Positions 4,255 through 21,493 of a stretch of DNA of 57,835 nucleotides are shown in pieces (position 1 is the first letter of the stretch; each line of letters starts with the position of its first letter). Location of the stretch: positions 73,121 to 130,955 of the forward strand of contig NZ_STFG01000009.1 of the NCBI RefSeq assembly GCF_004833285.1. The letters run 5' to 3'. The DNA is from Lampropedia puyangensis (GTDB taxonomy: Bacteria; Pseudomonadota; Gammaproteobacteria; Burkholderiales; Burkholderiaceae_C). The notes under the pieces are model-generated. The model ran no database searches and was not told the origin of the DNA. It was given only the letters and a program-made list of their open reading frames with translations. Made by a program: the position numbers and the translations under genes.

Positions 4255-4554
4255 CGGGCAAAGACTTGGGGCGTGGAGTTGGTATCGTGGTTCAGAGTGC
4301 GGGCTATATAGGGGAGAAATACCAACAGCTTCTTGAGTTGACTTTGCTGCGGGAGTTTCTGCGCACGCGCTAGCCTATATGGCTTGAGGGGCGTAGTGTG
4401 CCTGAAGTTGCAGCCAGACGGTATGCCATGCAATGGAAACCTCGGGCAAAGGTAAACATATTTCAACTATGGGATTGTGACGCTGGTCTGCATAAGCGGG
4501 CCGTCGCAGGTACACTCGCGTCCACATTTGAAGCTACGGCCAGCCCGTTTACGC
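4255..4554. other. Divergent spacer rnfB-moaA
   Basis: This 300-bp spacer separates divergently transcribed rnfB and moaA. I looked for the conserved Moco riboswitch core found upstream of moaA in some bacteria and did not recognise it. TTGACT at 4338 and TATAT near 4375 are too far apart for one promoter. No coding sequence is convincing. Confidence 0.5.
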
Positions 4555-5553
4555 ATGAATTCCAGCCCCACCACGCCAATGATTGATAGCTATGGTCGCA
4601 AGATCAGCTATTTACGCGTGTCGGTGACGGACCGTTGCGATTTGCGCTGCAACTACTGCATGCCCAAAGGGTTCAAGGGGTTTGAAGAGCCAGCGCACTG
4701 GCTGACACATGCTGAAATGGCCCGTGTGGTTGGCTTGTTTGTGAGGCTTGGGGTCAGCAAGGTTCGTTTGACTGGCGGTGAGCCGTTGATGCGCCGTGGT
4801 GTGGCGGAGTTGGCTGCCCGCATTACTGCCATGCCACAGGTGCGTGATTTGTCGCTGTCGACCAATGCGACGACCTTGGCAAAGCATGCGCAAGATCTTA
4901 AAGAGGCGGGGGTCAAGCGACTGAATGTCAGCCTTGATTCGCTTGATGCGGCACGGTTTGCCGAAATCACAGGGCGTGATTGTTTGGCTGATGTGCTTGC
5001 GGGTTTACAAGCTGCACGGCAGGTGGGTTTCACCCCTATTAAGCTCAATTGCGTGGTGAATGCACAGACGCCTGCTCAAGACATTGAGCAGTTGTTGCAA
5101 TATGCGCTGGACAATGGTTTTATTTTGCGGTTGATCGAGAACATGCCCATTGGCAGTACCGGTCAGCAATTTCAACATGCCAATTTAACGCAGATGGGCT
5201 CGGCCATCGCGGCGCGCAAATTTTTGGTGCCCGCGTTGGATACGAGCGATACCGGGCCTGCGCGCTACTGGACGTCAGGTCAAGGCGGTGCGCCGGTGTT
5301 GGGCGTGATTACGCCGATGTCGCAGCATTTTTGTGAAACCTGCAATCGCGTTCGTTTGACGGTAGATGGCACTTTGCATTTGTGTCTGGGGCAGGAAAAC
5401 AGTGTGCCGTTGGGGCGTATGTTGCGTGATGGTGCTGATGACGAGCAGTTGATCGCAGCAATCAACGGCGGTATTGCTGCCAAGCCTGAGCGGCATGAAT
5501 TCAATACCAAGCGTGCTCAGGTGGTGCGCTTCATGTCGCAAACTGGAGGCTGA
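4555..5553 (+). CDS. moaA: GTP 3',8-cyclase (molybdenum cofactor biosynthesis)
   Basis: MoaA is a radical-SAM enzyme that, with MoaC, converts GTP to cyclic pyranopterin monophosphate. The radical-SAM triad is Cys28, Cys32 and Cys35 (CDLRCNYC), counted from ATG 4555. The C-terminal second cluster is visible as CETCNRVRL and CLG, and the protein ends in the diagnostic Gly-Gly (SQTGG). The length of 332 residues fits. ATG 4579 ([10 protein letters not shown]) is an equally plausible start because neither has a clear ribosome binding site; a GTG-initiated extension from 4477 looks non-homologous. The next gene, mobB, begins 7 bp later, giving a moaA-mobB operon for molybdopterin synthesis. Confidence 0.95.
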
Positions 5554-5560
5554 TACTCCT

Positions 5561-6073
5561 ATGACCAAGCGGGTATTTGGCATTGCGGGGCGCTCAGGCA
5601 GCGGGAAAACTACGTTGCTTGAGGCGTTGCTTGCGCTGCTGTTGGCGCGCGGCTTGACGGTGAACGTCATCAAGCACAGCCACCATGACATCACGCTAGA
5701 GCCGGCGGGCAAAGACAGTGCGCGTTTTCGTGCTGCTGGTGCGCAAGAGGTCATGGTCAGCTCCCCCTATCGTTTTGCCATCATGCACGAATTACGAGAG
5801 CAAGAGCAGCCTAGTCTGGCAGAGCAGTTAAGCCGGTTAGCTCCTGCTGATTTGACTTTGGTCGAAGGTTTCAAACACGATGCTATTGACCGCATCGAAG
5901 TGTATCGCCCTGCAACGGGCCAAGCCCCTTTGTATACGCAAGAAGGCTTTCAATGCGTGGCGGTGGCCAGCGATGTACCTAAGCCCAGCGATGCACCCGC
6001 ATCGTTACACTGGCTGCCGTTGAACGAACCTGAAGTGATTGCGGCATTTATTGTGCAGTACCCCAGTGCTTGA
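5561..6073 (+). CDS. mobB: Molybdopterin-guanine dinucleotide adaptor MobB
   Basis: MobB is a small P-loop GTP-binding protein that assists MobA in attaching GMP to molybdopterin. The P-loop GRSGSGKTT spans residues 10-18, followed by VIKHSHHD (the KH(S/T)HH motif), [10 protein letters not shown] and LVEGFKH, all typical of the family. The length is 170 residues. The start at 5561 is supported by GGAGG near 5546 inside the end of moaA and by homology beginning at residue 4. It forms an operon with moaA, and fdhD follows 218 bp later, which suggests a Mo-bis-MGD formate dehydrogenase elsewhere in the genome. Confidence 0.93.
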
Positions 6074-6121
6074 CGTTGGCACAACGCTTGCGGTTCGTAT
6101 CCGTGTTGTCTTTTACTGCGG

Positions 6122-6165
6122 GCGCTTTTTGAATCTTGCCCTTCGGGGTGGAGTCAAAAAGGCGC
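6122..6165. repeat. Imperfect hairpin in mobB-fdhD spacer
   Basis: GCGCTTTTTGA at 6122-6132 pairs with TCAAAAAGGCGC at 6154-6165 except for one bulged G. No T-tract follows, so termination is uncertain. The 218-bp spacer otherwise shows no gene. Confidence 0.4.
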
Positions 6166-6291
6166 GTTGCTGTGTTTAAAATCTTTGCCGCGTTGATAGT
6201 CCGAAAGCGGTTTTTGCCGCGTATCGCATCCTTTTGGACTACAGCGTGGCCTGCGTGGTGATCCTAAACACGTTCTAACTGGTGGTAAACC

Positions 6292-7221
6292 ATGTCTGCT
6301 TGGTTTGATGAGTCAGATCTTTTGTTGCCCTCAGCGCTGGCTACGGTACCTGTGCAGCGCCATATCGAGGGTGAGGTTTCCCCCTGGGTTGATGACCAAG
6401 TGGTTGCCGAGGTGCCTGTAGCCTTGGTTTTCAATGGCATCTCGCATGCAGTCATGATGTGTACTCCACAGGATTTGGATGCTTTGGCGCTGGGGTTTGC
6501 ATTGAGTGAAGGGGTCATCGACAGTCCTTCGCAGTGCTACGACATCGACGTGGTTGCCGTGGATGCATGCACGCCCGGTAGTGATGCGCAGCATGTGGAT
6601 CTGCCAACCCTGCTGCAGGAACCAGAGATGCCTGCAGTCGAGGTTCGGCTGGAGATTGCAAGCAGTGCCTTTGTACGGCTCAAGGAACAACGCCGCAGTT
6701 TGGCTGGTCGCACAGGCTGTGGCGTTTGTGGCATTGACAACTTGCAGGCATTGGATTTGGTGCCGCCAGTGCAGCAACGGCCGCAGTGGCTCGAAGCTAT
6801 CACGTCGCAAACCCTGTTCAAGGCTTTGGCCGCAATGCCCGCGCAGCAGCTACTCAATAAGGCCACAGGGGCCGTGCATGCAGCAGGTTACGCCACACCT
6901 GATGGCGATTTGGTGGCCGTCTATGAAGATGTAGGGCGCCACAATGCCCTAGATAAGCTGCTGGGAGCAAGGGCGCAGGCCTTGGCTGAGGCCGCGCAAA
7001 AACCTTTGGGTTTGCATGGCTTGCCATGGCAGCCAGAGGGCTTTGTAGTGATGTCCAGTCGTGCCAGTTATGAACTGGTGCGCAAATGCTCGCGCCTTGG
7101 CATTCCTTTGTTAGCTACTATTTCAGCGCCTACATCGCTGGCGATACAAGTGGCCCACACAGCTGGCTTGCAGCTGTGGGGGTTGGCACGTGCACCACGC
7201 GCCGTGCGGTATACCCGCTAA
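6292..7221 (+). CDS. fdhD: Formate dehydrogenase accessory sulfurtransferase FdhD
   Basis: FdhD carries persulfide sulfur from IscS to the Mo-bis-MGD cofactor and activates formate dehydrogenase. The conserved loop RTGCGVCG places the two sulfur-transfer cysteines at Cys143 and Cys146. VYEDVGRHNALDK and SRASYEL are further family blocks. The protein is 309 residues, somewhat longer than E. coli FdhD (277). GGTGG lies close upstream of the ATG at 6292. It follows moaA-mobB in the same direction, consistent with a small molybdoenzyme-assembly island. No formate dehydrogenase subunit is present in the window. Confidence 0.95.
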   Translation: MSAWFDESDLLLPSALATVPVQRHIEGEVSPWVDDQVVAEVPVALVFNGISHAVMMCTPQDLDALALGFALSEGVIDSPSQCYDIDVVAVDACTPGSDAQHVDLPTLLQEPEMPAVEVRLEIASSAFVRLKEQRRSLAGRTGCGVCGIDNLQALDLVPPVQQRPQWLEAITSQTLFKALAAMPAQQLLNKATGAVHAAGYATPDGDLVAVYEDVGRHNALDKLLGARAQALAEAAQKPLGLHGLPWQPEGFVVMSSRASYELVRKCSRLGIPLLATISAPTSLAIQVAHTAGLQLWGLARAPRAVRYTR

Positions 7222-7288: not shown

Positions 7289-7921
7289 TCAAGCTGCCAC
7301 TGCCGGGTTGAGCGAGTAGGTGCCGGTCAAGCTGGCTTGGCCTAGCACTTGCGCTTTGGCCAGCGCTGCGATCACATTGGCCCCGTTGAGTTCACCGGTC
7401 ACCTCCAGCGTAGGGGTAGCCAGTGCATACACGGTGAAGATGTAGTGGTGCACGATGGAGTCGTTCCATGGTGGGCATGGGCCGTCGTAACCAAAGTACT
7501 GGCCTTTCATTTGCGCATCACCGGCAAACCAACCGGTGTAATCGTTGATGCCATGGCGCCAACCGTTAGGGGCTTGTGGGCCTGACTTTCCGCCTGCCGT
7601 AATGCCGTCGGAATGTGCGCCTGCCGCAATTTCTGTGGAGCTAGCGGGAATATCGAGCAGCAACCAATGGTAGAAGTCCACGCGTGGCAGATCGGCGGCA
7701 ACCGTACGACCTTCCTGGTTGACATCATCGCCTTTGTTGGGTACATCGGGGTCATGGCACACCACCACAAACGATTGGGTGCCTGCGGGGATATCCGTCC
7801 ATGCCAAATGGGGGTTGTGGTTGCTTGAGAGCGCCACATGGTTGGCGGCATCGGGCACAGCAAATGCATATGTACCGGCAATGGGTTGTCCGTCGTGAAT
7901 GCTTTGGCTAGTGAGTTTCAT
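7289..7921 (-). CDS. YbhB/YbcL-type PEBP-family protein
   Basis: This 210-residue protein belongs to the phosphatidylethanolamine-binding protein (Raf-kinase-inhibitor-like) family. Evidence includes the early NPHLAWTDIPAGTQSF segment, CHDPDVP, FYHWLLLDIP, then YFGYDGPCPPWNDSIVHHY and FTVYAL, which line the anion-binding pocket in YbhB. There is no signal peptide, so it should be cytoplasmic. Bacterial members have no settled role. It lies 52 bp downstream of selD on the same strand and may be the last gene of that transcript. Confidence 0.88.
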   Translation of the reverse strand: MKLTSQSIHDGQPIAGTYAFAVPDAANHVALSSNHNPHLAWTDIPAGTQSFVVVCHDPDVPNKGDDVNQEGRTVAADLPRVDFYHWLLLDIPASSTEIAAGAHSDGITAGGKSGPQAPNGWRHGINDYTGWFAGDAQMKGQYFGYDGPCPPWNDSIVHHYIFTVYALATPTLEVTGELNGANVIAALAKAQVLGQASLTGTYSLNPAVAA

Positions 7922-7973
7922 GGTCTATACCTGACGAAGTAAAAGAGAGGGGCTGGCGTGTGCAGAGAGGTAA

Positions 7974-9062
7974 TTACTTGACCACCACTTTGGCCTCGCC
8001 AGCGGCCATGTGTCCGACGATAGCGGCATCGTGAAAACCTTGCTCATCAAAGAGTTTCAAAACCTGCTGGGCGATCTCGGGGGCGCATGCCACCAGTAAG
8101 CCGCCTGAGGTTTGTGGGTCGGTCAGAATGCCTTGGGTGGCTCCACTGCCTTCTTGCGCAATGCGTGGTGCCAGCTCAATGTGGCTGCCATAAGACTGCC
8201 AGTTGCGCCCAGATGCGCCGGTGATGACGCCTTGCTCGGCAAAGTCACGCACGTCAGGCAACAGTTTCAGGGCTGTGCTGTCGATCTCGGCGGTCAAGCC
8301 TGCCCCACGGGCCAATTCGAGGGTGTGCCCCAACAGGCCAAAGCCTGTTACGTCGGTGAGCGCATGCACCCCATCGAGTTGTGCCAGTGCACTACCGGGT
8401 CGGTTGAGTTGAGTCGTCGCGGCCACCATAGCTGCGTAGCCTGCAGTATCTAGCAAGTTCTTTTTGAGTGCTGCCGACAAAATACCTACGCCTAATGGTT
8501 TGCCCAAAATCAGCACATCGCCAGACTGAGCACTGGCATTGCGCTTGAGCTGGGCGGGGTTGACGATGCCGATGCCAACCAAGCCATAAATTGGTTCTAC
8601 TGAGTCAATGGAGTGGCCTCCCGCTAAGGGAATGCCTGCATCGCGGCAGACTGATTCGCCCCCTTCAAGAATCTTGGCAATGACTTCGTGTGGCAACACG
8701 TTGATGGGCATACCCACAATGGCTAGCGCAAACAAAGGGGTTGCGCCCATGGCATAAATGTCCGAAAGGGCATTGGTCGCTGCGATACGACCAAAGTCAA
8801 ACGGATCGTCCACGATAGGCATGAAAAAGTCGGTGGTGGCGACAATGGCTTGATGCTCGTTGATTTGGTAGACGGCTGCGTCATCTGCGGTTTCAGTGCC
8901 AACAAGCAAGTGTTCATACATTTGCTTGGGCAGGCTGCTGTTGGCCAGCAACGCACTGAGCACACCAGGGGCTATTTTGCAGCCGCAGCCACCACCGTGC
9001 GAGAGCGAGGTCAGGCGTGGTGATGCGGGGGAGGATTTGGAGGGAGTATTCATGGTTGGCAT
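7974..9062 (-). CDS. selD: Selenophosphate synthetase
   Basis: SelD makes monoselenophosphate from selenide and ATP, the selenium donor for selenocysteine, 2-selenouridine and selenium-dependent hydroxylases. The active-site loop SHGGGCGCK gives Cys26 and Lys29, matching E. coli Cys17 and Lys20, so this is a Cys form, not a selenoprotein. TTDFFMPIVDDPFDFGRIAA, GGHSID, DVTGFGLLGH and CDPQTSGGLL-like DPQTSGGLL follow in order. The length is 362 residues. The ATG directly follows the stop of the upstream flavoprotein gene (TGAATG), and an alternative Met lies 9 bp inside. No selA, selB, selC or selU is in the window, and this linkage to transporter and oxidoreductase genes is unusual. Confidence 0.96.
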   Translation of the reverse strand: MPTMNTPSKSSPASPRLTSLSHGGGCGCKIAPGVLSALLANSSLPKQMYEHLLVGTETADDAAVYQINEHQAIVATTDFFMPIVDDPFDFGRIAATNALSDIYAMGATPLFALAIVGMPINVLPHEVIAKILEGGESVCRDAGIPLAGGHSIDSVEPIYGLVGIGIVNPAQLKRNASAQSGDVLILGKPLGVGILSAALKKNLLDTAGYAAMVAATTQLNRPGSALAQLDGVHALTDVTGFGLLGHTLELARGAGLTAEIDSTALKLLPDVRDFAEQGVITGASGRNWQSYGSHIELAPRIAQEGSGATQGILTDPQTSGGLLVACAPEIAQQVLKLFDEQGFHDAAIVGHMAAGEAKVVVK

Positions 9063-10178
9063 TCAGGGGGTTGGCGTTGCACACAAAAGCGTGCCTATTT
9101 TGTCAAACAGCACATCGCTGGTGGGGGCCATCACGCAGGCTGCGCGGGCATCGCGAAACAAGCGCTCAATGCCCAGCTCTTTGCGAAATGCCGCGCCGCC
9201 GCAAATGCGCATGGCCGTGTCGCTCACCTCTAATGCTGCCTCAGCTGCTGCTGCTTTGACCAACAGCAGACGCATGCCTTTGTCCAAGCGGGCAGCTTGC
9301 ACGGCGGCAACGGTGTCGTCACGCAGTAGCCGGGCCTGATCGGCACGCAGATGGGCTTTGGCCAAGTAAGCCCGAATAGTGGGCAAATCTGCCAACGAGG
9401 TCCCGCTTTCTGCAAAACGTGAAGTGCTGATGTGCGTGATGGCGCGGCGCAAAATACCTTGCATTAACCCAATGGAGGTTGTGGCGATCAAGGTGGCAAA
9501 GTAGGGCATCAGATACTGCGCCTTGAGCGGCTCGGCCTGACCATCTGCTCCGAGTCTGCTTGACAGCGCTGTGGGCACGGCTTGGGCACTGATGGGGGCG
9601 GAGTGGTTGCCGCGCAGGCCGAGACCATCAAAAGCGCGTGGCACGCTAAACCCCGGGTCTTTGGCATTGAGCAGCCACAACGTATTACCTTCCCCTTGCA
9701 TGGCGCGTGTAGTCCAGACGTAAGAGTCGGCTTGGCCGGCGGAGGTGATCATGCTTTTTTCGCCAGATATCAACACCGTATCGGCCGCTTGCATTTGGGC
9801 TTGGCTGGTCATGGCCCAAATGTGGCTGCGTGTGGCTGTTTCTGACACGGCCAGTGTGGTGATGTGCCGACCTGCAGCAATGGCTTGGCGCACATCTTTG
9901 CCTCCTAATTGTTCAATGTACACCGTGCCGCAGTAATGCATGGTCAACACCATGGCGGTGCAGGGGCAGTCCTGCGCGATGCGCTCAACGACTTGCACAG
10001 CTTCAGGCAAACCAAGGCCTAAACCGCCTACATCGGTACTGCTGATCAAGCCAAGCAAGCCGGCTTGGCCTAACGCTTGCAGTGCCTGGCGCGGATAGGC
10101 CGCGTGGGCGTCGGTGGTAGTGGCGTTGGGCGCGATTACCTCGCGCATAATGGGTTCGAGTTGTTCTAAAAAATGCAT
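9063..10178 (-). CDS. Acyl-CoA-dehydrogenase-like flavoprotein (copy 2)
   Basis: A 371-residue member of the acyl-CoA dehydrogenase fold: helical N domain with LGQAGLLGLIS, middle beta domain (TLAVSETATRSH, GEKSMITSAGQADSY), and C domain with FAESGTSLADLPTIRAYLAKA and AMRICGGAAF. In classical enzymes the tenth residue of the RDA... block is the catalytic Glu. Here it is Ala351 (RDARAACVMAPTSD), so ordinary CoA-ester dehydrogenation is doubtful. Members such as SfnB and DszC act as flavin-dependent monooxygenases on organosulfur compounds; that role is inferred, not shown. It is clearly a paralogue of the protein at 12321-13448. It starts 17 bp after the TusA-like/di-iron gene and abuts selD. 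Confidence 0.85.
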   Translation of the reverse strand: MHFLEQLEPIMREVIAPNATTTDAHAAYPRQALQALGQAGLLGLISSTDVGGLGLGLPEAVQVVERIAQDCPCTAMVLTMHYCGTVYIEQLGGKDVRQAIAAGRHITTLAVSETATRSHIWAMTSQAQMQAADTVLISGEKSMITSAGQADSYVWTTRAMQGEGNTLWLLNAKDPGFSVPRAFDGLGLRGNHSAPISAQAVPTALSSRLGADGQAEPLKAQYLMPYFATLIATTSIGLMQGILRRAITHISTSRFAESGTSLADLPTIRAYLAKAHLRADQARLLRDDTVAAVQAARLDKGMRLLLVKAAAAEAALEVSDTAMRICGGAAFRKELGIERLFRDARAACVMAPTSDVLFDKIGTLLCATPTP

Positions 10179-10195
10179 GGTGGTACCGCCAAGGC

Positions 10196-11410
10196 TTACA
10201 TGAAATTGCGGGTGTGCAGGGAAGACAGGCGCTCGGCTTCTTCACGTTCAAACCCTAGGCGCAATAAACGTGTGAAACGGCCATCCCCCATGTCGCGCAT
10301 GAGTTGCTGTACCCGCTCAAATCCGGTTTGAACTGCGGCGGGTTCGAGCGATCCGGCGCCAATCAGAATCAAGGCGTCAAAGACCTCTTCATTCAGCCCA
10401 GAGCTGCCTGCCAGCTGGTCATGGCGTGCTTGAACGGCGTTGGCCAGACGACTGCGCAACGAGGGCTCGCTTTGCAGACGGTAGAGTAGGTGCGACATGC
10501 CGAGCGCCACGTGGCGGGCTTCATCGCGCGCAGCAAGTCGGCACATTTGGCGTGTCAACGCATCGGGCGCGTAGGCTTGCAGGTATTGCAGCAGGTTCAC
10601 AAAGGTGCCTTCGCCCAAGACCGATAGCAGAAAACCCGCGATCGAAAAATCTGGTTCATCCAGAAGGCTTTTGAGTGAGGCTTGCCCACCTGCGGTGGAC
10701 AAGGCCGGCTCGGCGCCACCTAGCCGTACGCGGCGCGTGAAGACTTCAATGTGGCGCGCCTCGTCTGCCACCTGAATGGCCAATGCCGCTTGCAGTTCGC
10801 GGTAATGTGGGTGCAACTGGCCTAGAAAGCGAGCGGGCACCAGCAAAGCGGCATTCTCGTTTTCAATCATGTAGGTCATGACCTGAACGATCGCCGCCTC
10901 AATTTCTGGCGGGTGATTGAGCACTTCATTCCAATCCAATGCAGTGTCTGGATTCCACTGCGCATGCACGGCCTGTGTATACAGGTCTGCGGCATTTTCT
11001 GCCCAGAAGTCTTGTTTGTGGTCAAGTTTGAAATGGAACTGCGGGCCACCGGCTTCCACCCGTGCACCGCGCGCTGCCAAGCCCCAGCCAGGCAAGGCGT
11101 GTTCCAGCACCGCATCAACGGCTTGGGCATCGGCATGGCCTGTATAGGCTGCGTTGTGCCAACGCCCAGCTTCAGCATTGCCGCGTTGCATGAGTGCCGC
11201 TTGCTGGCCTGATTCCCACTGCAAGGGGTGGCCTTGCGCACGTGCCCACGCTGCAAGTTGGGATTGCCAGCCGGGAGCGCGGCTGGTCACCCGCAGGCTT
11301 TGACCTTGGGGTAGGGCTGCCAGCGCATGTTTGACCAGAAGGTGTGCGCCAGCATCAAACCCTAGCGCCTCAATATCGATAGTCTTTGGCGACAATGCGG
11401 CCTTGTTCAT
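10196..11410 (-). CDS. TusA-like domain fused to ferritin-like di-iron domain
   Basis: From ATG 11410 the protein has 404 residues. Residues 11-66 resemble the TusA/SirA fold: an ALG start, then ALAALPQGQSLRV, PGW, and AWARAQGHPLQW, parallel to the GxxLxVxxxDP...GHxL pattern. The sulfur-carrying Cys-Pro is absent (FDAGAHLLV instead). Residues 160-310 form a ferritin-like helical region with two DEARH motifs; likely iron ligands are Glu183/Glu185, Glu217, His220, Glu267, Glu297 and His300, as in di-iron oxygenases and ribonucleotide reductase R2. The start overlaps the end of the PhnD-like gene by 41 bp. A longer reading open to 11593 would overlap that gene entirely in an unlikely composition. 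Function unknown; an oxygenase working with the flanking flavoproteins is my inference. Confidence 0.75.
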   Translation of the reverse strand: MNKAALSPKTIDIEALGFDAGAHLLVKHALAALPQGQSLRVTSRAPGWQSQLAAWARAQGHPLQWESGQQAALMQRGNAEAGRWHNAAYTGHADAQAVDAVLEHALPGWGLAARGARVEAGGPQFHFKLDHKQDFWAENAADLYTQAVHAQWNPDTALDWNEVLNHPPEIEAAIVQVMTYMIENENAALLVPARFLGQLHPHYRELQAALAIQVADEARHIEVFTRRVRLGGAEPALSTAGGQASLKSLLDEPDFSIAGFLLSVLGEGTFVNLLQYLQAYAPDALTRQMCRLAARDEARHVALGMSHLLYRLQSEPSLRSRLANAVQARHDQLAGSSGLNEEVFDALILIGAGSLEPAAVQTGFERVQQLMRDMGDGRFTRLLRLGFEREEAERLSSLHTRNFM

Positions 11411-12239
11411 CGTAAAAACCTTGTTCAGTTGCAGCGCGTTGCAATAGGGCAAAGCCTTCGGTGCGGGCAGGTTGCCATTGCTTGAGCCCTTCAAGCTCGA
11501 GTAATGCGCGCACGGGCGCATCGTTCCAGTCCATCGCCAGCAGCAAGTCGCCAAAGCGTTGGCTGACCGCCGCATCCAGACCGGGGGCGGCACTCATGAT
11601 GCAGTGGTCGTACAGGCCAGTCGAATCGAGAATGCGGGTCGCCCCAGCGGGCAAAGTTCCTTCTGCGGCAAAGGCCTTGTAGTTTTTGGCAATCATCCAG
11701 CTGGCGGCAATATTGCCTTCAAGCATGGCTTGGGCAGCTAATCGTTCACCACCAATGTGGTCACCATGTTTGCCTCCTAGAATATCAAAACGGTGCACCA
11801 CAAAGTCTTTTTCCGGCTGCAGGCCGCCTACATGCTGCATGTGGTCCAGCGGAATCAATGTTGCTTGTGGCGAATCAATCGTACCAAAACCTACGGTTTG
11901 TCCACGCAAGTCTGCCGTGTTTTGGTAGGGGCTGTCCGCCTTGACGACCAGCACTGACTGCAGGTCGATATCGGTGTCGCGCATGACCACTTGCCCCGCT
12001 TGCAGGCCACGGGCGCTGGCGAGTCGCTCTGTACGCACCCACGCCAATGGCGAGTTCCATGCAAAGTGGATGTCCCCATTGATCATGGCTTCGACCTGGG
12101 TTTCGTAGTTGGAATACAAGATGAAGTCCATTGCGAAGTCACGCTCTGCAAGATAGGCTTTGAAGCCTTCCCAGATGGTGATGACTTTTGGGGCGTAAGC
12201 GACGGCGCCAAGAATAAAAGGGGAGGTCGGTGTACTCAT
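11370..12239 (-). CDS. PhnD/SsuA-like substrate-binding protein without signal peptide
   Basis: This 289-residue protein looks like the phosphate/phosphonate periplasmic-binding family (PhnD, PBP type 2). It has GAVAYAPKVITIWEGFK near the start, EAMINGDIHFAWNSPLAW, a central LRGQTVGFGTIDSPQA, and HGDHIGGERLAAQAMLEGN. From ATG 12239 (MSTPTSPFIL) there is no hydrophobic signal sequence, and extending upstream does not create one. It may be a cytoplasmic ligand-binding protein or need another export route. It lies between the two flavoprotein genes and overlaps the TusA-like/di-iron gene. No separate PhnC or PhnE partner is nearby; the linked ABC transporter is TauABC. Confidence 0.75.
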   Translation of the reverse strand: MSTPTSPFILGAVAYAPKVITIWEGFKAYLAERDFAMDFILYSNYETQVEAMINGDIHFAWNSPLAWVRTERLASARGLQAGQVVMRDTDIDLQSVLVVKADSPYQNTADLRGQTVGFGTIDSPQATLIPLDHMQHVGGLQPEKDFVVHRFDILGGKHGDHIGGERLAAQAMLEGNIAASWMIAKNYKAFAAEGTLPAGATRILDSTGLYDHCIMSAAPGLDAAVSQRFGDLLLAMDWNDAPVRALLELEGLKQWQPARTEGFALLQRAATEQGFYDEQGRIVAKDYRY

Positions 12240-12320
12240 GGGTTGTTTGCGAATGTTGGAGGTCAAACACGTACGGCTGCCTGCCACGGCTGGCGCAGCA
12301 GCAGAGCAGAAGTCATTTTC

Positions 12321-13448
12321 TCAGTTGGCTTGTTCTGCCGCTGCAGCATCGCACAGGGCGGTGCCAATGTGGTCAAACAGCACGTCTGATGTTGGTGCCA
12401 TGATGGAGGCTGCACGCGCATCGCGGAACAAGCGCTCAATGCCAGCTTCCTTACGGAATGCAGCGCCACCACAAATGCGCATGGCCGTGTCGGTCACTTC
12501 CAGCGCTGCTTCTGCGGCGCTGGCTTTGTTTTCCAGCACGCGAAGCATAGTGTCGGGGCGGCCTGCCGCCAGCGCGGCCAATGTATCGTCACGCAAAGTG
12601 CGGGCTTGGTCTGCACGAATTTTGGCGCGGGCCAAGTAGGCGCGAATGGTTGGCAGGTCAGACAGGCTGCTGCCACTTTCTGCAAAACGGTTTCTGGTGA
12701 TGTGTGCTGTAGCCCGTGCCAGTGCGCCATCCATCATGCCGATGGAGCATGAGGCAATGAGCATGGTGAAGATGGGCAAAACCACTTGGTTGGACAGTTC
12801 AGCGCCCTTGCCGTCTTCGCCCAACAAATCGGCCAGAGTAACGCGTACATCGTTGGCTTTGACTGGGGAGGAGGCATTGCCACGCAACCCCAGGCCATCA
12901 AATGGCCCTGCAACCTGAAGGCCAGGCAACTGGCTGTCGACCAGCCAGATTGAGAGGCCCTCTTCGCCTTGCATGGGGCGCGATGTCCAGACGTAGGAGT
13001 TGGCTTGCCCTGCTGATGTCACCATGCTTTTGGCAGCGTTGAGCAATACGGCATCGCCTTCAACCGTGGCGGTACCTACCGGTGCCCAGAAGTGGCTGCG
13101 TGAGCCGATTTCTGACCATGCAAGTGTGCTGGTATGTTGACCTGCTGCAATCGCTTTGCGAGTCGCTTCGGGGCCACAACGTTCAATCACTGCGGTGCCG
13201 CAGTAATGCATGGTCAATACCATGGCAGTGGATGGGCAGTCTTGTGCAATACGCTGCACGATTTGGGCCGCTTGCGCCATGCCAGCGCCCATACCGCCGA
13301 CCTCTTTGGCGCTGATGAGTCCCAGTAAACCGGCTTGGCCTAATGCATCAAGTGCTGCGCGGGGATATTGGGCTTGGCGATCTGTCGTTAAAGCAGCAGG
13401 TGCAATCAGATCACGGACGATTGGTTCAAGGGTGTCGAGATAGGACAT
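12321..13448 (-). CDS. Acyl-CoA-dehydrogenase-like flavoprotein (copy 1)
   Basis: A 375-residue flavoprotein of the acyl-CoA dehydrogenase fold, paralogous along its whole length to the protein at 9063-10178. Shared blocks include LGQAGLLGLIS, VLTMHYCGT, SMVTSAGQANSYVW, FDGLGLRGN, LSDLPTIRAYLARAK and AMRICGGAAFRKE. At the position of the family catalytic Glu it also has Ala351 (RDARAASIMAPTSD). This pair therefore probably does flavin-dependent oxidation of something other than an acyl-CoA, perhaps SfnB/DszC-like; that is inference. ATG 13448 is chosen from homology to the paralogue; the frame is open upstream to 13607. A 221-bp gap separates it from tauC, so it could have its own promoter. 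Confidence 0.85.
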   Translation of the reverse strand: MSYLDTLEPIVRDLIAPAALTTDRQAQYPRAALDALGQAGLLGLISAKEVGGMGAGMAQAAQIVQRIAQDCPSTAMVLTMHYCGTAVIERCGPEATRKAIAAGQHTSTLAWSEIGSRSHFWAPVGTATVEGDAVLLNAAKSMVTSAGQANSYVWTSRPMQGEEGLSIWLVDSQLPGLQVAGPFDGLGLRGNASSPVKANDVRVTLADLLGEDGKGAELSNQVVLPIFTMLIASCSIGMMDGALARATAHITRNRFAESGSSLSDLPTIRAYLARAKIRADQARTLRDDTLAALAAGRPDTMLRVLENKASAAEAALEVTDTAMRICGGAAFRKEAGIERLFRDARAASIMAPTSDVLFDHIGTALCDAAAAEQAN

Positions 13449-13669
13449 GGTGGCAGCGATAAGGTGCGTTGTTGTGACCCTATTGCGTACGTACCTGCAA
13501 CCCATCAGGGGGCGGAGCAGGTTGCCTAGTCGTGCCCACCGCCGCCGCCGTGCAGACCTGCAACAGGGATCATTTGCGAATATGCACTCGCCAGTATGCA
13601 ACTGCACGGCGAGACAGGTGCCATTATGCGCGTTATGGGGCCGGCATGCGCTGCAACGCTATTGGCGAC

Positions 13670-14521
13670 TCAGGCTTTGCCTTGCCAAGGCACCAAGCGG
13701 TGTTCTAACCATCGCATCAGCAGGTCAAAGCTCCACGCCACCAAACCAATGACCAAGATTCCCATGACCACCATATCGGTGCGCAGAAAATTTGAAGCAT
13801 TGAGCACCAATTGCCCAATTCCGACAGTGGCAGCGACCATTTCTGCTGCAACCAGCGTCGTCCAGCCAAAGCCAATGGCAATGCGCAAACCAACCAGAAT
13901 GTCAGGCAGTGCTGCGGGAATGATGACATGCCATATCAACTGCCAGCGTGAGGCCCCGAGCGACAGGGCTGCATTGATTTGCTCCACACTGGCGCTGCGC
14001 ACGCCGGCTTTGGCTGCCAAAGCAATGGGGGCAAAGCAAGCCAGGTAAATCAAGAGGATTTTGGACGTTTCATCAATACCAAACCAGATCACGATCAACG
14101 GGAGGTAGGCCAATGGAGGCAATGGGCGGTAGAACTCCAGTGGTGGATCGAAAACGCCACGAGCCACACGGCTGACGCCCATGGCAATGCCAATAGGCAC
14201 GGCGGTCACCAAGGCCGCAAAAAAGGCGCCAAACACGCGAATAGCGCTCCATTGCAGGTGTTCCAGCAAGGGCTGCCCACCTTGAATCTGGCCTGACCAC
14301 GCGGCAATAAAAGCGTCCTTCACAGCTGCAGGTGCCGGCAAGAACAGCGTGGGAACCCAAGCGCGTTGTGTGGCCAGCCACCACAGCGCAACCAAAGCCA
14401 CAATTGTGAGGAGGCTGATGGATCGGCTGGATTTCTCGCTCAGTGTGCGAAACGGAGCTACCGCTACCAGTGGGGCGGCATCATCTTGTGGTGCATGTGT
14501 TGCGTGGAGCATTTTTTGCAT
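13670..14521 (-). CDS. tauC: Taurine/sulfonate ABC transporter permease
   Basis: A 283-residue inner-membrane permease of the TauC/SsuC family. After a Pro/Ala-rich N terminus there is a first membrane span (SLLTIVALVALWWLA), and the conserved block PLPPLAYLPLIVIWFGIDE with TSKILLIYLACFAP, then the coupling loop AALSLGASRWQLIWHVIIPA and LPDILVGLRIAIGFGW, very close to TauC. It ends with RLVPWQGKA, like TauC. The start at 14521 (MQKMLHATHAP) is 10 bp after the tauB stop; an upstream frame extension overlaps tauB and is rejected. It pairs with TauB and TauA to import taurine or another small sulfonate. Confidence 0.9.
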   Translation of the reverse strand: MQKMLHATHAPQDDAAPLVAVAPFRTLSEKSSRSISLLTIVALVALWWLATQRAWVPTLFLPAPAAVKDAFIAAWSGQIQGGQPLLEHLQWSAIRVFGAFFAALVTAVPIGIAMGVSRVARGVFDPPLEFYRPLPPLAYLPLIVIWFGIDETSKILLIYLACFAPIALAAKAGVRSASVEQINAALSLGASRWQLIWHVIIPAALPDILVGLRIAIGFGWTTLVAAEMVAATVGIGQLVLNASNFLRTDMVVMGILVIGLVAWSFDLLMRWLEHRLVPWQGKA

Positions 14522-14531
14522 GAACAGCCTT

Positions 14532-15455
14532 TTATGGCGCGTGAACGGATGGCGCAACCCAGCCCAGTACGCGCTCACGCCATTCAATGAATGGTGCGCT
14601 GGATTTGATGGCGCGGGCATTGTCGCTTTGCAAGTAGGCTTGGCTAAATGGCAAGGTTTGGTCTTGCACAATGCGCCCCGGGCGTGGCGACATGACAATC
14701 AAGCGTGATGCGAGAAACAATGCTTCTTCCACATCGTGTGTGATGAAAAAAATGGTTTTGCGTGTCTCTTGCCAAATACGCAGCAGCAATTCTTGAATTG
14801 ATTCCCGTGTAAATGCATCGAGCGCGCCCAAGGGCTCGTCCAGCAACAGAACGTCCGGATCGCTGGCCAGCGCCCTTGCAATACCAACGCGTTGCTGCAT
14901 GCCGCCAGACAGCTGCCAAATGGATGCGTGTGCAAAATCTTTTAGACCCACTTGCTCTAGTTTTTCGTGCCCAATAGCATGGCGCTGTTTTTTGCCCAAG
15001 CCGCGCAATCGCAAGCCTAATGCCACGTTGTCCAGCACCGAGAGCCAAGGCATCAGTGCATGCTTTTGGAACACGACGCCACGGTTGGCACTGGCACTGT
15101 CAATGGCCGCGCCATTCAGGCTGAGCGTGCCTGCCGAGGCTTGGGTAAAGCCTGCAATCACATTGAGCAATGTGGTTTTCCCGCAGCCTGAGGCCCCGAC
15201 AGCGACTACAAACTCCCCTTTCGCAATGTGCAGGTTGATTTGGCTTAGCGCCAACGTGTCGCTGTGCTGGCCTGCACCTTGGTAGCGCACAGACAGATTG
15301 CGGATGTGCAGGCCACTTTCGCAGGCTGGCTGCAGTAGGTCAGCGGAGATCCGCGTGTCCGCTTCTGCAGATTGGGGCTCAACATTTGACGCGATGCTGT
15401 CAGGCCACTCGGGCTGTTGGCACAATTGCAAATTACTTTTGGCCATTGGCTGCAC
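14532..15455 (-). CDS. tauB: Taurine/sulfonate ABC transporter ATPase
   Basis: A 307-residue ATPase. After about 45 variable residues come Walker A (GASGCGKTT), the Q-loop region RGVVFQKHALMPWLSVLDNV, signature LSGGMQQRVGIARAL, Walker B VLLLDEPLGALDAFTR and the switch ITHDVEEALFLA. The sequence around ALMPW and DAFTR is closer to TauB than to SsuB as I remember them. The N-terminal extension is longer than in E. coli TauB (255 residues). The start overlaps the end of tauA by 23 bp; an alternative Met is 9 bp inside. It drives import through TauC. Confidence 0.9.
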   Translation of the reverse strand: MQPMAKSNLQLCQQPEWPDSIASNVEPQSAEADTRISADLLQPACESGLHIRNLSVRYQGAGQHSDTLALSQINLHIAKGEFVVAVGASGCGKTTLLNVIAGFTQASAGTLSLNGAAIDSASANRGVVFQKHALMPWLSVLDNVALGLRLRGLGKKQRHAIGHEKLEQVGLKDFAHASIWQLSGGMQQRVGIARALASDPDVLLLDEPLGALDAFTRESIQELLLRIWQETRKTIFFITHDVEEALFLASRLIVMSPRPGRIVQDQTLPFSQAYLQSDNARAIKSSAPFIEWRERVLGWVAPSVHAP

Positions 15456-16476
15456 GCGTAACCCAGGTCGCGTTCACACCAACGCTGTAGTCAGGCAATA
15501 CAGATTGGATCGTGCCTTGCTCTTTCAGGAATGCGGCGGTGGCCGCCAGTGATTGGGACACTACGGACTCTTGGCCGCCACCCAGCCATTGCTTGCTGGC
15601 CTGTTGCACAGGGGGAACGAACTCGTACAGCGCAAGGCTGGCTGGTACGTTGGTTGGTTCAGCGCCACTCCATTTGGCTACAGCCTGTACCTGTGGCGAA
15701 TCGCTGGTCCATTGGCTTGTGTGGTTTACGTACTCTTGATCAACTTGTGCAAGCGTTTTGACGAATTCAGTGAGAAAGGCATCGTGGTCTTTGCTGAATT
15801 TTTTGCTTACTGCCAATGCATCGAAAGTGGCTTTGCCTGTTTGACGGGCAATCTCGCCTGACGTAATGAGCACTTTTCCTGATTGCTTGGCTTGTGCAAG
15901 GGCGGGATCCCATACAAACGTGGCATCAATGTCGCCGCGACCCCATGCAGCCAGAATTTCCGGTGGGCGCAGATTCAGCAATTGAACTTCGTTGGGAGAA
16001 ATGCCTGCGCCTTCTAGAGCAACCAGAGTATGAAAGTGCGTGGTCGAAGCAAAAGGCAGCGCAATTTTTTTGCCCTTCAGGTCAGCCACTGTGTTGACGT
16101 TAGAGCCATTGCGGGCTACCAAAGCCTCGGCGTTGTTGATGTTGTCCAGAATCCAGAATACTTCAATCGGAACGCCTTGAGAGAGTGCCGCAGCAAAAGG
16201 TGAAGAGCCCGCCTCACCAATGTCGATCGCGCCGGAAGCCAGTGCACGCACCACTTCTGCTCCGCTGCCAATTTTGCGGTAGGTGACTTTGTAGCCAGTG
16301 CGCTCTTCCACCAATTTGGTTTCTTGCGCATAACGCCAAGGCACCACCATGTCTTGGTACCCAATCACAACTTCTTTGGATTGGGCTATGGCATGGCCTG
16401 AGAAGGTGCCCGCGAGCGCGAGAAGGGTAGCCATTTGTGCGGTACGGCTCAACCAGTGGCGGCGTGTATGCGTCAT
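15433..16476 (-). CDS. tauA: Taurine/sulfonate ABC transporter substrate-binding protein
   Basis: A 347-residue periplasmic protein with a signal sequence: MTHTRRHWLSR, a hydrophobic core (MATLLALAGTFSG) and cleavage after HAIA. The mature part has GSGAEVVRALASGAIDIGEA, GSSPFAAALSQGVPIEVFW, LKGKKIALPFASTTHF and LRPPEILAAWGRGDIDATFVW, all blocks of TauA. ATG 16476 is supported by AAAGGAA just upstream. It is the first gene of the minus-strand cluster that runs to selD. No tauD (taurine dioxygenase) is in the window, so the imported compound may be handled by the flavoprotein and di-iron genes that follow. Confidence 0.9.
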   Translation of the reverse strand: MTHTRRHWLSRTAQMATLLALAGTFSGHAIAQSKEVVIGYQDMVVPWRYAQETKLVEERTGYKVTYRKIGSGAEVVRALASGAIDIGEAGSSPFAAALSQGVPIEVFWILDNINNAEALVARNGSNVNTVADLKGKKIALPFASTTHFHTLVALEGAGISPNEVQLLNLRPPEILAAWGRGDIDATFVWDPALAQAKQSGKVLITSGEIARQTGKATFDALAVSKKFSKDHDAFLTEFVKTLAQVDQEYVNHTSQWTSDSPQVQAVAKWSGAEPTNVPASLALYEFVPPVQQASKQWLGGGQESVVSQSLAATAAFLKEQGTIQSVLPDYSVGVNATWVTRAANGQK

Positions 16477-18707: not shown

Positions 18708-19598
18708 TCAGGTCGGCATGGGTTGGCGAGCCAGTTCGATGAAGGCGCGCACGTAGTCGATGGCCGTATCGCTTTGCCGCGCTCCAAGAAAAATCTGCTT
18801 GGCAATGCCCCGTTGGCCAAGCCGAACTGGCACTACGTCGATCTTGGTGGCATATTCTTCAACCAGCCAACGTGGCAGGGCGGCTACGCCGCGGCCACTG
18901 GCGACCATTTGCAACATGATGTCGGTGGTTTCAATGGTTTTGTGGCGTTTGGGCGTGACGCCGGCTGGCAAAAGGAACTGGTTATAAATGTCCAGCCGCT
19001 CGATATCTACAGGGTAGCTGATGAGCACTTCTTTGGTCAGTTGTTGAGGTTTTGCGTAGACGGCTGAGGCCAATGCATGCCCTTTGGCAACCACCAGCAC
19101 CTGTTCGTAATCGAACACAGGCTCGAAAACCAAACCGGGTTTGTACAGCGGGTCAGGCGTGACCAGCAGGTCAATCTCAAAACCAAAGAGCGCGCCAATT
19201 CCCCCGAATTGGAATTTCTGCTTGACGTCAACGTCCACATCAGGCCAAGCTGCCAAATAGGGGGCCACTACTTTGAGCAGCCACTGGTAGCAAGGGTGGC
19301 ATTCCATCCCAATGCGCAATGCTCCACGCTCGCCTTGTGCGAATTGGCCTAAGCGCTCTTCTGCCAGGTTCAGTTGTGGCAACACACGGTTGGCGACTGC
19401 CAGTAGGTATTGGCCTGCTTGTGTCAGACGCAGGTTGCGCCCTTCGCGCAGCCAAATATCGGTCCCTAATTGCTGTTCTAGCTTTCGCATGCTGTGGCTT
19501 AACGCCGACTGGGTGAGGTTCAGCGCACCAGCTGCAGCCGTTAATGAGCCTTGCTTTTCAACCTCTAAAACGATGCGTAAATGAATGCGCTCAATCAT
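18708..19598 (-). CDS. metR: LysR-type methionine regulator MetR
   Basis: A 296-residue LysR protein very similar in layout to MetR, the homocysteine-responsive activator of methionine genes. The helix-turn-helix is at about residues 15-45 (GSLTAAAGALNLTQSALSHS, close to the E. coli sequence). The effector domain has LRIGMECHPCYQWLL, matching the MetR IECHSCIQWL block, then FDYEQVLVV, SYPVDIERLDIYNQFLLPAG and VASGRGVAALPRWLVEE. It is divergent from a flavin reductase, mesX and mesD. A MetR-consensus palindrome lies 6 bp from its start codon, which suggests autoregulation. No ribosome binding site is visible. Confidence 0.92.
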   Translation of the reverse strand: MIERIHLRIVLEVEKQGSLTAAAGALNLTQSALSHSMRKLEQQLGTDIWLREGRNLRLTQAGQYLLAVANRVLPQLNLAEERLGQFAQGERGALRIGMECHPCYQWLLKVVAPYLAAWPDVDVDVKQKFQFGGIGALFGFEIDLLVTPDPLYKPGLVFEPVFDYEQVLVVAKGHALASAVYAKPQQLTKEVLISYPVDIERLDIYNQFLLPAGVTPKRHKTIETTDIMLQMVASGRGVAALPRWLVEEYATKIDVVPVRLGQRGIAKQIFLGARQSDTAIDYVRAFIELARQPMPT

Positions 19599-19601
19599 TT
19601 G

Positions 19602-19618
19602 AATGAATATTTTTCATT
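19602..19618. promoter_or_regulatory. MetR binding site
   Basis: AATGAA-TATTT-TTCATT is a perfect 6-bp inverted repeat. Its core TGAATATTTTTCA (19604-19616) fits the MetR consensus TGAA, five bases with a central A or T, TTCA. It lies just upstream of metR and about 210 bp before the divergent flavin reductase. Confidence 0.75.
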
Positions 19619-19825
19619 GATTTATGAGAAATGACCATTTTACTTCATGTGATGCGGCCACTAGTATGCGTGCCTATTGTGGATTGACACGGGTTGGTAG
19701 ACACCCGCTTCCCAGCTTCATTGTTGACAGATGCGGATGCGGTTGCTGTTTTAGTTTTTTTGCCGATCCCATGGGTAATGGCTTTTTGCGGCTGAACGCC
19801 CATGCATTCATTTGATGAGGAAAAA

Positions 19826-20431
19826 ATGGTACGAGCATTACGCATCGTTGCTGTCTCTGGTGGTTTGCAACGTCCATCCAAGGCTGCAGCATTGGCTAGA
19901 CATTTAATGGACTTGATCACCAGCGAAATGGCGTGTGAACCGCATCTGATTGAACTGGGCGCACTGACTCCTGCCATGGCGGGCTGCGTGTGGCGTTCGC
20001 AATTGCCCGTTGCTGTGGAGCGGGCGCTGGCACTGGTGGAACAAGCTGATGTTCTGATCGTCACCACGCCGGTGTACCGGGGGGCTTACACAGGGTTGTT
20101 TAAACACTTTTTCGATTTGGTTCATCAGGATGCCTTGATTGACAAGCCGGTGCTGCTGGCTGCAACCGGCGGCAGCGAACGCCATGCTTTGGTGATCGAC
20201 CACCAGTTACGGCCTTTGTTCAGCTTTTTTCAGGCTCGTACGTTGCCACTGGGCATATATGCGACCGATCAGGACTTTGTCGACTATCGCCTGCAAAGCC
20301 AGGCATTGCTTGAGCGCGCCAGGCTGGCCGTTGCACGGGCATGGCCTTTGATCCGTTTGTCAGCTCCAGTGGCAGAAAGCGTTGTTGCCCCAATTCAAGC
20401 GTTTCGCGCGCCAGAGTCGATCACTGCCTGA
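19826..20431 (+). CDS. NAD(P)H-dependent FMN reductase, MsuE/SsuE type
   Basis: A 201-residue flavodoxin-fold flavin reductase. It has the N-terminal SGGLQRPSKAAALA loop that binds FMN phosphate, VLIVTTPVYRGAYTGLFKHF, and PVLLAATGGSERHALVIDHQLRP, the blocks seen in MsuE and SsuE. Such enzymes supply reduced flavin to two-component monooxygenases in sulfonate use. ATG 19826 is preceded by GAGG; an upstream in-frame ATG at 19802 is less likely. It heads the mesX-mesD unit and is divergent from metR. It may supply flavin to MesX or to the flavoproteins at 9-13 kb; this is inference. Confidence 0.9.
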   Translation: MVRALRIVAVSGGLQRPSKAAALARHLMDLITSEMACEPHLIELGALTPAMAGCVWRSQLPVAVERALALVEQADVLIVTTPVYRGAYTGLFKHFFDLVHQDALIDKPVLLAATGGSERHALVIDHQLRPLFSFFQARTLPLGIYATDQDFVDYRLQSQALLERARLAVARAWPLIRLSAPVAESVVAPIQAFRAPESITA

Positions 20432-20479
20432 AAGGCAGTATCCATTTTTGTTTTCAGAACTCCATCACATCGAATCACC

Positions 20480-21457: not shown

Positions 21458-21493
21458 ACACACCAGATTTTTCAATAAACGGAATCACGAACC

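Follow-up and report, generated by a model that had tools for sequence, protein, structure and literature searches.

Gene content of the locus

The 57,835-nucleotide (nt) stretch of the Lampropedia puyangensis genome analysed here (contig NZ_STFG01000009.1; its full length is called the window) carries, on the reverse strand at positions 7974-16476, eight genes that run from a tauA-like gene to selD. Our subject is the core of this row, a flavoprotein gene, a phnD-like gene and a gene for a fusion of a TusA-like with an AurF-like di-iron domain, together with the RNA leader that precedes them. A sequence-only reading had taken all eight genes as one tightly spaced cluster whose possible role was the breakdown of an organosulfur or organoselenium compound, and open reading frame (ORF) calls and family profiles bore out the number of genes, their common strand and the families assigned to them.

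Read in the direction of transcription, the row begins with genes for a tauA-like binding protein (15433-16476; 333 bits against the TIGR01729 cut-off of 304), a tauB-like ATPase (14532-15455; 335 bits, below the TauB cut-off of 357) and a tauC-like permease (13670-14521; 286 bits, below the TauC cut-off of 342), the start of the last being inferred within a longest ORF that extends to 14698. After a gap of 221 nt follow fadA, which encodes an acyl-CoA-dehydrogenase-fold flavoprotein (12321-13448, the start at 13448 set by homology), the gene for a PhnD-like protein recognised by alignment and by its PhnD/PtxB fold (11370-12242), the TusA-like/AurF-like fusion gene, assigned through profile and structure matches (10196-11410), fadB, which encodes a second flavoprotein of the same fold with 63% identity to the first (9063-10178), and selD, the selenophosphate synthetase gene (7974-9062; 534 bits against the NF002098 cut-off of 299). 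With these starts the spacing is mostly as tight as had been claimed: tauA and tauB overlap by 23 bp and the phnD-like and fusion genes by 41, gaps of 10, 78 and 17 bp separate tauB from tauC, fadA from phnD and the fusion from fadB, and fadB abuts selD with no gap at all. The exception is the tauC-fadA gap (13449-13669), which holds the 5' leader region of the selenium-linked genes and, within it, the core of a hairpin resembling a selenocysteine insertion sequence (SECIS), GTTGCAGGTCTGCA, at 13551-13564 on the reverse strand, 102 nt ahead of the start codon of fadA. Because the conserved leader sits there, tauABC and the genes from fadA to selD may form two transcription units; nothing promoter-like turned up when these 221 nt were scanned with a simple sigma-70 pattern.

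The SelD of the window is of the cysteine type (motif HGGGCGCKI) and was the sole SelD above cut-off in a profile search of its genome, which is 99.57% complete. The same genome encodes SelA (615 bits) on another contig, with selB beside it (stretch L092), as well as an fdoG in which an in-frame TGA is followed by a SECIS (stretch L112), and no SelU reached its cut-off in the profile search. Because SelA is present, SelU is missing above cut-off and fdoG has both TGA and SECIS, the selD of the window most likely serves selenocysteine synthesis through this SelA.

Two groups of genes lie outside the row. The molybdenum-cofactor and formate-dehydrogenase genes moaA, mobB and fdhD (4477-7221) are on the forward strand beside selD. 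A LysR gene, an FMN reductase gene, a gene for a putative oxygenase of the MesX family (592 bits) and one for a methionine synthase core (Meth_synt_2) occupy 18708-22522, a group which we take to resemble the oxygen-linked MesX/MesD methionine synthase pair.

The conserved gene set and its association with selenium use

Relatives of the fusion were collected in a pattern-limited scan of one genome per species (84,980 species), which gave 178 relatives, and the best 80 were kept as loci for comparison. Gene content was counted in the sequence flanking each set, with 24 loci of at most 15 kb and 56 longer ones; two loci, L006 and L007, are near-duplicates. Thirty-two of the loci were read by eye after a codon-position filter; clustering of longest ORFs gave antisense artefacts in GC-rich loci.

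The conserved unit is the trio of a fadA-type flavoprotein gene, the phnD-like gene and the fusion gene, and not tauABC plus selD as the sequence-only reading had it. A phnD match lies upstream of the fusion, on the same strand, in 79 of the 80 loci, and a fadA/fadB match lies upstream of phnD, likewise on the same strand, in 66, the set ranging from Betaproteobacteria to Acidobacteria and Myxococcota. The 14 loci without a flavoprotein match before phnD include nine assigned to Caulobacter, Caulobacterales, Caulobacteraceae or Brevundimonas and three whose stretches are cut short (L023, L046 and L069). No shared fourth gene was seen beside the set in the 32 loci read, nor in the artefact-prone clusters, and the fusion had no match in a plasmid collection.

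None of the 80 relatives has a tauA match in its examined flanks, and tauB- or tauC-like matches (27-53% identity) occur in nine loci, 0.75 to 9.3 kb from the set. These results bear on the proposal that tauABC imports a sulfonate which the flavoproteins and the di-iron protein degrade, SelD catching selenide as a by-product. Its attractions are that tauA scores above the taurine cut-off, that tauA, tauB and tauC overlap or nearly touch, and that SfnB and 3-sulfinopropanoyl-CoA desulfinase appear among the weaker family matches, but besides the scarcity of tau genes in relatives it has to contend with a conserved leader of the set that separates tauC from fadA and with a co-occurrence that tracks SelA and SelU, and we regard it as improbable. 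A shared function of tauABC with the set is also unlikely, and the tau part looks incidental. The tie to selenium drawn earlier for the whole cluster thus holds for the flavoprotein, PhnD-like and fusion genes, through linkage, co-occurrence and leader, and lacks support for the tau genes. The genes may nonetheless act in the breakdown of an organosulfur or organoselenium compound.

Some loci depart from the common layout. The locus of Lampropedia aestuarii (L004) keeps the leader core but apparently has just a flavoprotein fragment before phnD (8608-9183), has fadB between the fusion and selD, and, like the window, has moaA and fdhD matches flanking the set. In two loci, L053 (8160-9146) and L059 (8144-9124), phnD is closely preceded by a gene that by eye resembles that of the TrhO/rhodanese tRNA hydroxylase. 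The phnD-like gene of L053, from a Caulobacter metagenome-assembled genome (MAG), contains one in-frame TAG (9199-10056), a sequencing error or a mark of a pseudogene.

To describe the proteins we used alignments of 39 fusion and 37 PhnD-like sequences (alignment A1, with 38 of the 80 loci, and alignment A2, with 36), the latter leaving out L050 and L071 by choice and L053 for its in-frame TAG. The catalytic glutamate of acyl-CoA dehydrogenases sits in a YEGTSE motif, and the fadA product has alanine at this position (MAPTSDV against IYEGTSEV of 5ol2), with the same letters in that of fadB. The PhnD-like protein was modelled with a predicted local distance difference test score (pLDDT) of 94 in the fold of the phosphite and phosphonate binders PtxB and PhnD, with the arsenate/arsenite binders ArrX and AioX lower in the list of matches, and H159, H162, D212, H213 and C214 are invariant. 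No signal peptide was seen, and the protein should be cytosolic because it begins close to its first strand. Taken alone, the window's fusion matched nothing in Pfam or NCBIfam at E 0.001 and stayed below cut-off for both TusA (PF01206; 17.2 against 28.6 bits) and AurF (PF11583; 16.2 against 29.6 bits), yet scanning each member at E<=1 gave AurF matches in 39/39 (best 4e-10) and TusA matches in 35/39 (best 1.5e-6). Its model (pLDDT 91) was matched in Foldseek by the VlmB-type azoxy synthase, aldehyde-deformylating oxygenases and R2-like oxidases, and E183, E217, H220, E267, E297 and H300, the putative di-iron ligands, are invariant. The active site of TusA is the cysteine of a GLxCPxPV (CPxP) motif; at this position the fusions have the consensus LGLDAGAHLL, with no invariant cysteine. 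Together these features suggest that the PhnD-like protein holds a small compound and that the enzymes of the set oxidise or reduce it.

The sequence-only reading had allowed that rarity of these genes beside selD would speak against its proposal, and selD is indeed found in the examined flanks of just 9 of the 80 loci, with any sel gene in 15 (14 of the 56 loci above 15 kb). Where sel genes are near, the set takes at least four arrangements among the 80 loci, standing before selD in L004-L009 and L046, after selA-selB in L011 and L019-L021 (with fdhD next in L019-L021), between selA and selB in L050 and L052, and beside fdoG with selB/selA on the other side in L058 and L061. The gene for the selenocysteine tRNA (tRNA-Sec) was seen in L011, L019 and L020.

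Selenium use was assessed through SelA, SelU, SelD and FdhD in the genomes of 50 of the 80 loci, picked for diversity and length, in counts that ignore relatedness. SelA was found in 31 of these genomes, SelU in 40, one or the other in 49 and SelD in 47; for sequenced bacteria overall, PMC5322559 gives 38.3% with SelD, 24.7% with selenocysteine and 22.3% with selenouridine. Thirteen genomes outside Betaproteobacteria or unclassed (L055, L063 and L075) all have SelA or SelU, and that of L058, of no class and outside those 13, has both. Among 150 genomes drawn from the window's family, 135 have SelD above cut-off, 39 have SelA and 5 have a strong fusion match (E below 1e-100). With so high a baseline SelD alone says little in this family and SelA is the informative gene: it is present in 5/5 of the strong-fusion genomes against 39/150 overall (hypergeometric p 0.001, or 0.004 with the window's own genome left out), G129, whose fusion match is weak (27% identity, E 1e-4), being kept out of the 5/5. 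The Caulobacteraceae, the family of L059's genome, repeat the pattern, with SelA in 17 and the fusion in 6 of 99 genomes and SelA in all 6 (p 1.1e-5, or 4e-4 with two previously known genomes left out). An order-wide draw had the fusion in 7 of 399 genomes. We are quite confident that the set is associated with selenium. As a separate observation, the SelD matches in the genomes of L055, L064, L067, L072 and L075 contain one in-frame TGA, and SelD itself is therefore probably a selenoprotein there.

These data also bear on whether the set helps to build or protect a formate dehydrogenase with selenocysteine and molybdenum, and follows selenium only through the selenocysteine of that enzyme. 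The set does lie in fdo-fdhE-selA/selB clusters (L011, L019-L021, L050, L052, L058 and L061); fdhD is the very next gene in L019-L021, and in the window and L004 both moaA and fdhD are close by. FdhD, however, occurs in just 37 of the 50 genomes; the 13 without it, the tested Gallionellaceae and Nitrosomonadaceae among them, all have SelA or SelU, which speaks against formate dehydrogenase as the common factor, and the Caulobacteraceae, Myxococcota and Acidobacteria loci read showed neither sel nor fdo genes in their examined flanks. Formate dehydrogenase was dropped as the common factor, and a role in its maturation seems distinctly unlikely.

Two conserved leader RNAs

Two kinds of conserved leader were found upstream of fadA among the relatives, and that of the window belongs to the first. 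Its GTTGCAGGTCTGCA is also the SECIS core of E. coli fdhF (a 48-nt query around this SECIS matched 5368 of 5426 E. coli genomes, with fdhF annotated in the three matches listed), and it forms the same apical hairpin as fdhF, GU-U-GCA-GGUC-UGC-AC. Allowing at most one mismatch, the core occurs in the window and in 18 of the 80 loci, upstream of the set every time; its distance to the flavoprotein match is 51-158 nt in 17 of the 18, and in L004 it lies 563 nt before phnD with the flavoprotein fragment in between. The only other matches of this 14-mer in 1.47 Mb were two, in L047 and L048, both on the other strand, where 0.47 were expected, and the leader of L011 has the core with two mismatches. 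Tests for a stem below the apical hairpin gave mixed results: a first energy test was negative (p 0.41), a second was invalid, and a third, targeted one on 12 leaders was positive (p 0.017 by permutation, 0/500 shuffles). The Rfam searches made offered no family that would account for the leaders, and a sub-threshold match to DnaX in L018 was taken as chance (29.6 against 35 bits).

The hairpin corresponds to the SECIS of the same genomes' own selenoprotein gene. After its in-frame TGA, fdoG carries GGCAGGTCTTGCC in all 11 first-leader genomes with a readable fdoG start, the window's included (the start is cut off in L017, which was left out), and in those 11, L. aestuarii included, the TGA is followed at once by a SECIS of the sequence TGACACGGCCCGACGGTGGCAGGTCTTGCCCC, which shares GCAGGTCT with the leader. 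The fdoG of L011 has the same SECIS, and the apical sequence differs, as GGCCAGTCTGGCC or GGCAAGTCTTGCC, in L050, L058 and L061, in which the first leader was not found. By leader type, SelA is present in 11 of 12 genomes with the first leader, 2 of 15 with the second and 18 of 23 with neither, the first and second differing at p 7e-5.

A true SECIS in this place would decode a UGA in a short upstream ORF, and some spacings invite the idea: the distance from a TGA to the core is 5 nt in the window, 6 nt in L005-L009, 15 nt in L012 and 27 nt in L019, compared with 12 nt in E. coli fdhF. The spacing varies, however, the TGA overlaps the core in L017, and 10 of the 18 loci (L004, L013-L016, L018, L020, L021, L035 and L036) have no TGA at all in the 40 nt that precede the core. 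Upstream UGA decoding was therefore dropped and is very unlikely; with no UGA conserved at decoding distance, the leader is to be read as a SECIS-like control element and not as a decoding SECIS. By analogy with E. coli selAB it would be a SelB-binding element, and we think it probable that SelB controls the leader of the window.

The second leader is a structured RNA of about 170 nt before fadA in 24 loci, and it does not occur in the window. It was found in L022, L024-L034, L037 (at 7794-7964), L038-L043, L047-L049, L051 and L077, that is, in Nitrosomonadales, Gallionellaceae, Massilia, Duganella, Rugamonas, Pseudoduganella and other MAGs of beta type, lineages that mostly lack SelA. RNAalifold gives it 43 pairs, and in the trimmed alignment A4 94.8% of cells pair against 31-47% when slid by 1-3 columns, the former value being biased upward because the structure was derived from the same sequences. 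Covariation is strong, with 17 pairs changed on both sides and 57 such cells against 18 in shuffles (0/500). Rfam had no match at gathering score for the second leaders of L024, L037 and L042, and only chance-level matches at E<=5 for that of L037. A loose pattern was dropped after 1284 uninformative matches; a covariance model run over 1.70 Mb of sequence, the selD and selU regions of three second-leader genomes included, matched above 21 bits at those same 24 places and nowhere else. The second leader is a new structured RNA, and its position makes it riboswitch-like.

Proposed function and known systems

The associations described above lead us to infer that the compound handled by the set carries selenium. 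The cytosolic PhnD-fold protein would hold a scarce selenium compound, which one or both flavoproteins and the di-iron protein would oxidise or reduce so that selenium reaches a form usable by SelD, and selenophosphate would then pass to SelA for the selenocysteine of formate dehydrogenase. SelB carrying Sec-tRNASec should bind the SECIS-like hairpin at the start of the mRNA in many of the selenocysteine-using relatives, ample Sec-tRNASec turning the operon down and selenium shortage turning it up. We give about an even chance to the view that the set, joined here by fadB and SelD, is an oxygen-using system of selenium supply; that it frees the selenium oxidatively, from a compound that is organic or already oxidised, is a more tentative suggestion. 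The most complete version, and a rather doubtful one, is of an operon dedicated to selenium acquisition in oxygen users, with release by flavin and di-iron chemistry and with RNA switching by selenium status, through the SelB/SECIS-like leader in selenocysteine users or through the riboswitch-like RNA of about 170 nt in lineages mostly without SelA.

The set might instead act after SelD and turn selenophosphate into a selenium metabolite, much as SenB and SenA make selenoneine from selenophosphate. The presence of SelD in 47 of the 50 set-bearing genomes and the likeness of the di-iron protein to VlmB, an enzyme of natural-product synthesis, would suit such a role. In the window's family, though, the set follows SelA (5/5) despite the near-universal SelD (135/150), and a hairpin for SelB bound to Sec-tRNASec fits the control of supply better than that of a side product, so that we hold product synthesis to be unlikely.

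Several observations tell against a role in selenium supply. Sixty-five of the 80 loci have no sel gene in their examined flanks (24 of the 80 being 15 kb or shorter), those read from Nitrosomonadaceae, Nitrosomonas, Massilia, Caulobacteraceae, Acidobacteria and Myxococcota among them, and tRNA-Sec was not found in the examined pieces of the window's genome. A MAG, L013, has no SelA, SelU or SelD and is the sole one of the 50 genomes with neither SelA nor SelU; L079 with SelU and L060 with SelA lack a SelD above cut-off; and G129, the sixth and weak fusion match in the draw from the window's family, lacks SelA. In that family SelD occurs in 135 and a strong fusion in 5 of 150 genomes, so the set is dispensable for selenium use, and relatedness inflates the p values. 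As for the leader, the fdoG genes of L042 and L047 have the same SECIS with small changes and yet the second leader, so SECIS type alone does not predict the first leader, and the first energy test of its stem, an insensitive one, gave no sign of conserved pairing (p 0.41).

A further point of this kind comes from Actinobacteria, in which an adjacent pair of an acyl-CoA-dehydrogenase-family gene and a phnD-like gene lies on plasmids of Miltoncostaea, Mycolicibacterium and Rhodococcus (L115-L117), with no sel gene in the stretches examined, that of Rhodococcus ending at the record end. Radical SAM genes neighbour two of the three pairs (Miltoncostaea and Mycolicibacterium), a deiodinase-like gene that of Mycolicibacterium, and DoxX-family genes those of Miltoncostaea and Rhodococcus; the radical SAM protein may replace the di-iron enzyme there. 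A CcdA gene was also noted among the neighbours of these pairs. Because these pairs lack a sel gene nearby, the flavoprotein-PhnD pair may have an older role outside selenium metabolism, the association with selenium having been examined for the version with the TusA/AurF fusion. The neighbours of these pairs, the many loci without a nearby sel gene, and L013 and L079 are what could be said for a set that acts on some other target, such as a thiol cofactor or an organosulfur compound, and that simply happens to be common in lineages that use selenium. We find this quite unlikely in view of the co-occurrence with SelA, SelD and SelU, the overlap with SelA within families, the linkage to sel genes, the leader core and the fdoG SECIS.

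A conserved selenium-associated set with a SelB hairpin on its mRNA would make selenium supply in aerobes testable and would extend the control exerted by SelB beyond sel genes, and the second leader is a candidate riboswitch, the ligand of which would give a clue to what the set acts on. According to two reviews (PMC9312934 and PMC13188914), bacteria have no identified high-affinity transport system that is specific for selenium. A literature search over titles and the starts of abstracts found none that names the set; Haft and Tolstoy 2025 (mSystems, on selenoprotein neighbourhoods) might bear on it.

Among known protein families, the best named ones for fadA, fadB and the PhnD-like gene are those of the Rv1679 (FadE16)/Rv1680 pair (NF049984/NF049985), an adjacent pair of this kind being the one also seen on the Actinobacterial plasmids, but the scores are far under the cut-offs (349 and 312 against 600 for the flavoproteins, 212 against 400 for the PhnD-like protein). 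TIGR04553, a putative binding protein of a selenate ABC transporter, shares with our protein the PhnD fold and a link to selenium and was matched by 37/37 PhnD-like proteins; the window's protein, however, scores about 54 bits (54.5) against a cut-off of 250, and TIGR04553 is part of a transporter, while a permease is missing from the conserved set and no signal peptide was seen in its PhnD-like protein. A second selenium-linked PhnD-fold system was seen on a Sphaerotilus sulfidivorans plasmid (L118), where mnmH, an ATPase gene, a permease gene, a TIGR04553 gene and selD stand in a row. The fusion resembles AurF, VlmB and the aldehyde-deformylating oxygenases in its ferritin-like fold and its E..ExxH..E..ExxH pattern, and differs in its N-terminal TusA-like domain devoid of the conserved cysteine motif and, for the window's protein, in a score below the Pfam AurF cut-off. 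YedE, YedF, LysR_Se and DUF3343 (PMC5322559) were likewise proposed through linkage to sel genes, but they are other families, and acyl-CoA, phosphonate, TusA and ferritin do not appear as terms in its main text.

The closest comparisons for the first leader are with SelB-dependent RNAs. The fdhF/fdoG SECIS has the same GCAGGTCT core and hairpin, found also in the fdoG of the window's genome, but the leader has no conserved UGA at decoding distance and lies outside any selenoprotein gene. A SECIS-like element was reportedly described in the leader of the E. coli selAB mRNA by Thanbichler and Boeck in 2002 (EMBO J 21:6925). The likeness would be that in both cases a 5' untranslated region carries a SECIS-like element through which SelB presumably controls translation; the leader of the window, by contrast, would control a metabolic set that is not made of sel genes, and its core matches the fdhF SECIS, whereas GCAGGTCTGC is absent from the 110 nt that precede selA in K-12. 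What is new compared with these systems is an accessory operon, linked to selenium, that has a SECIS-like leader without being one of the sel operons.

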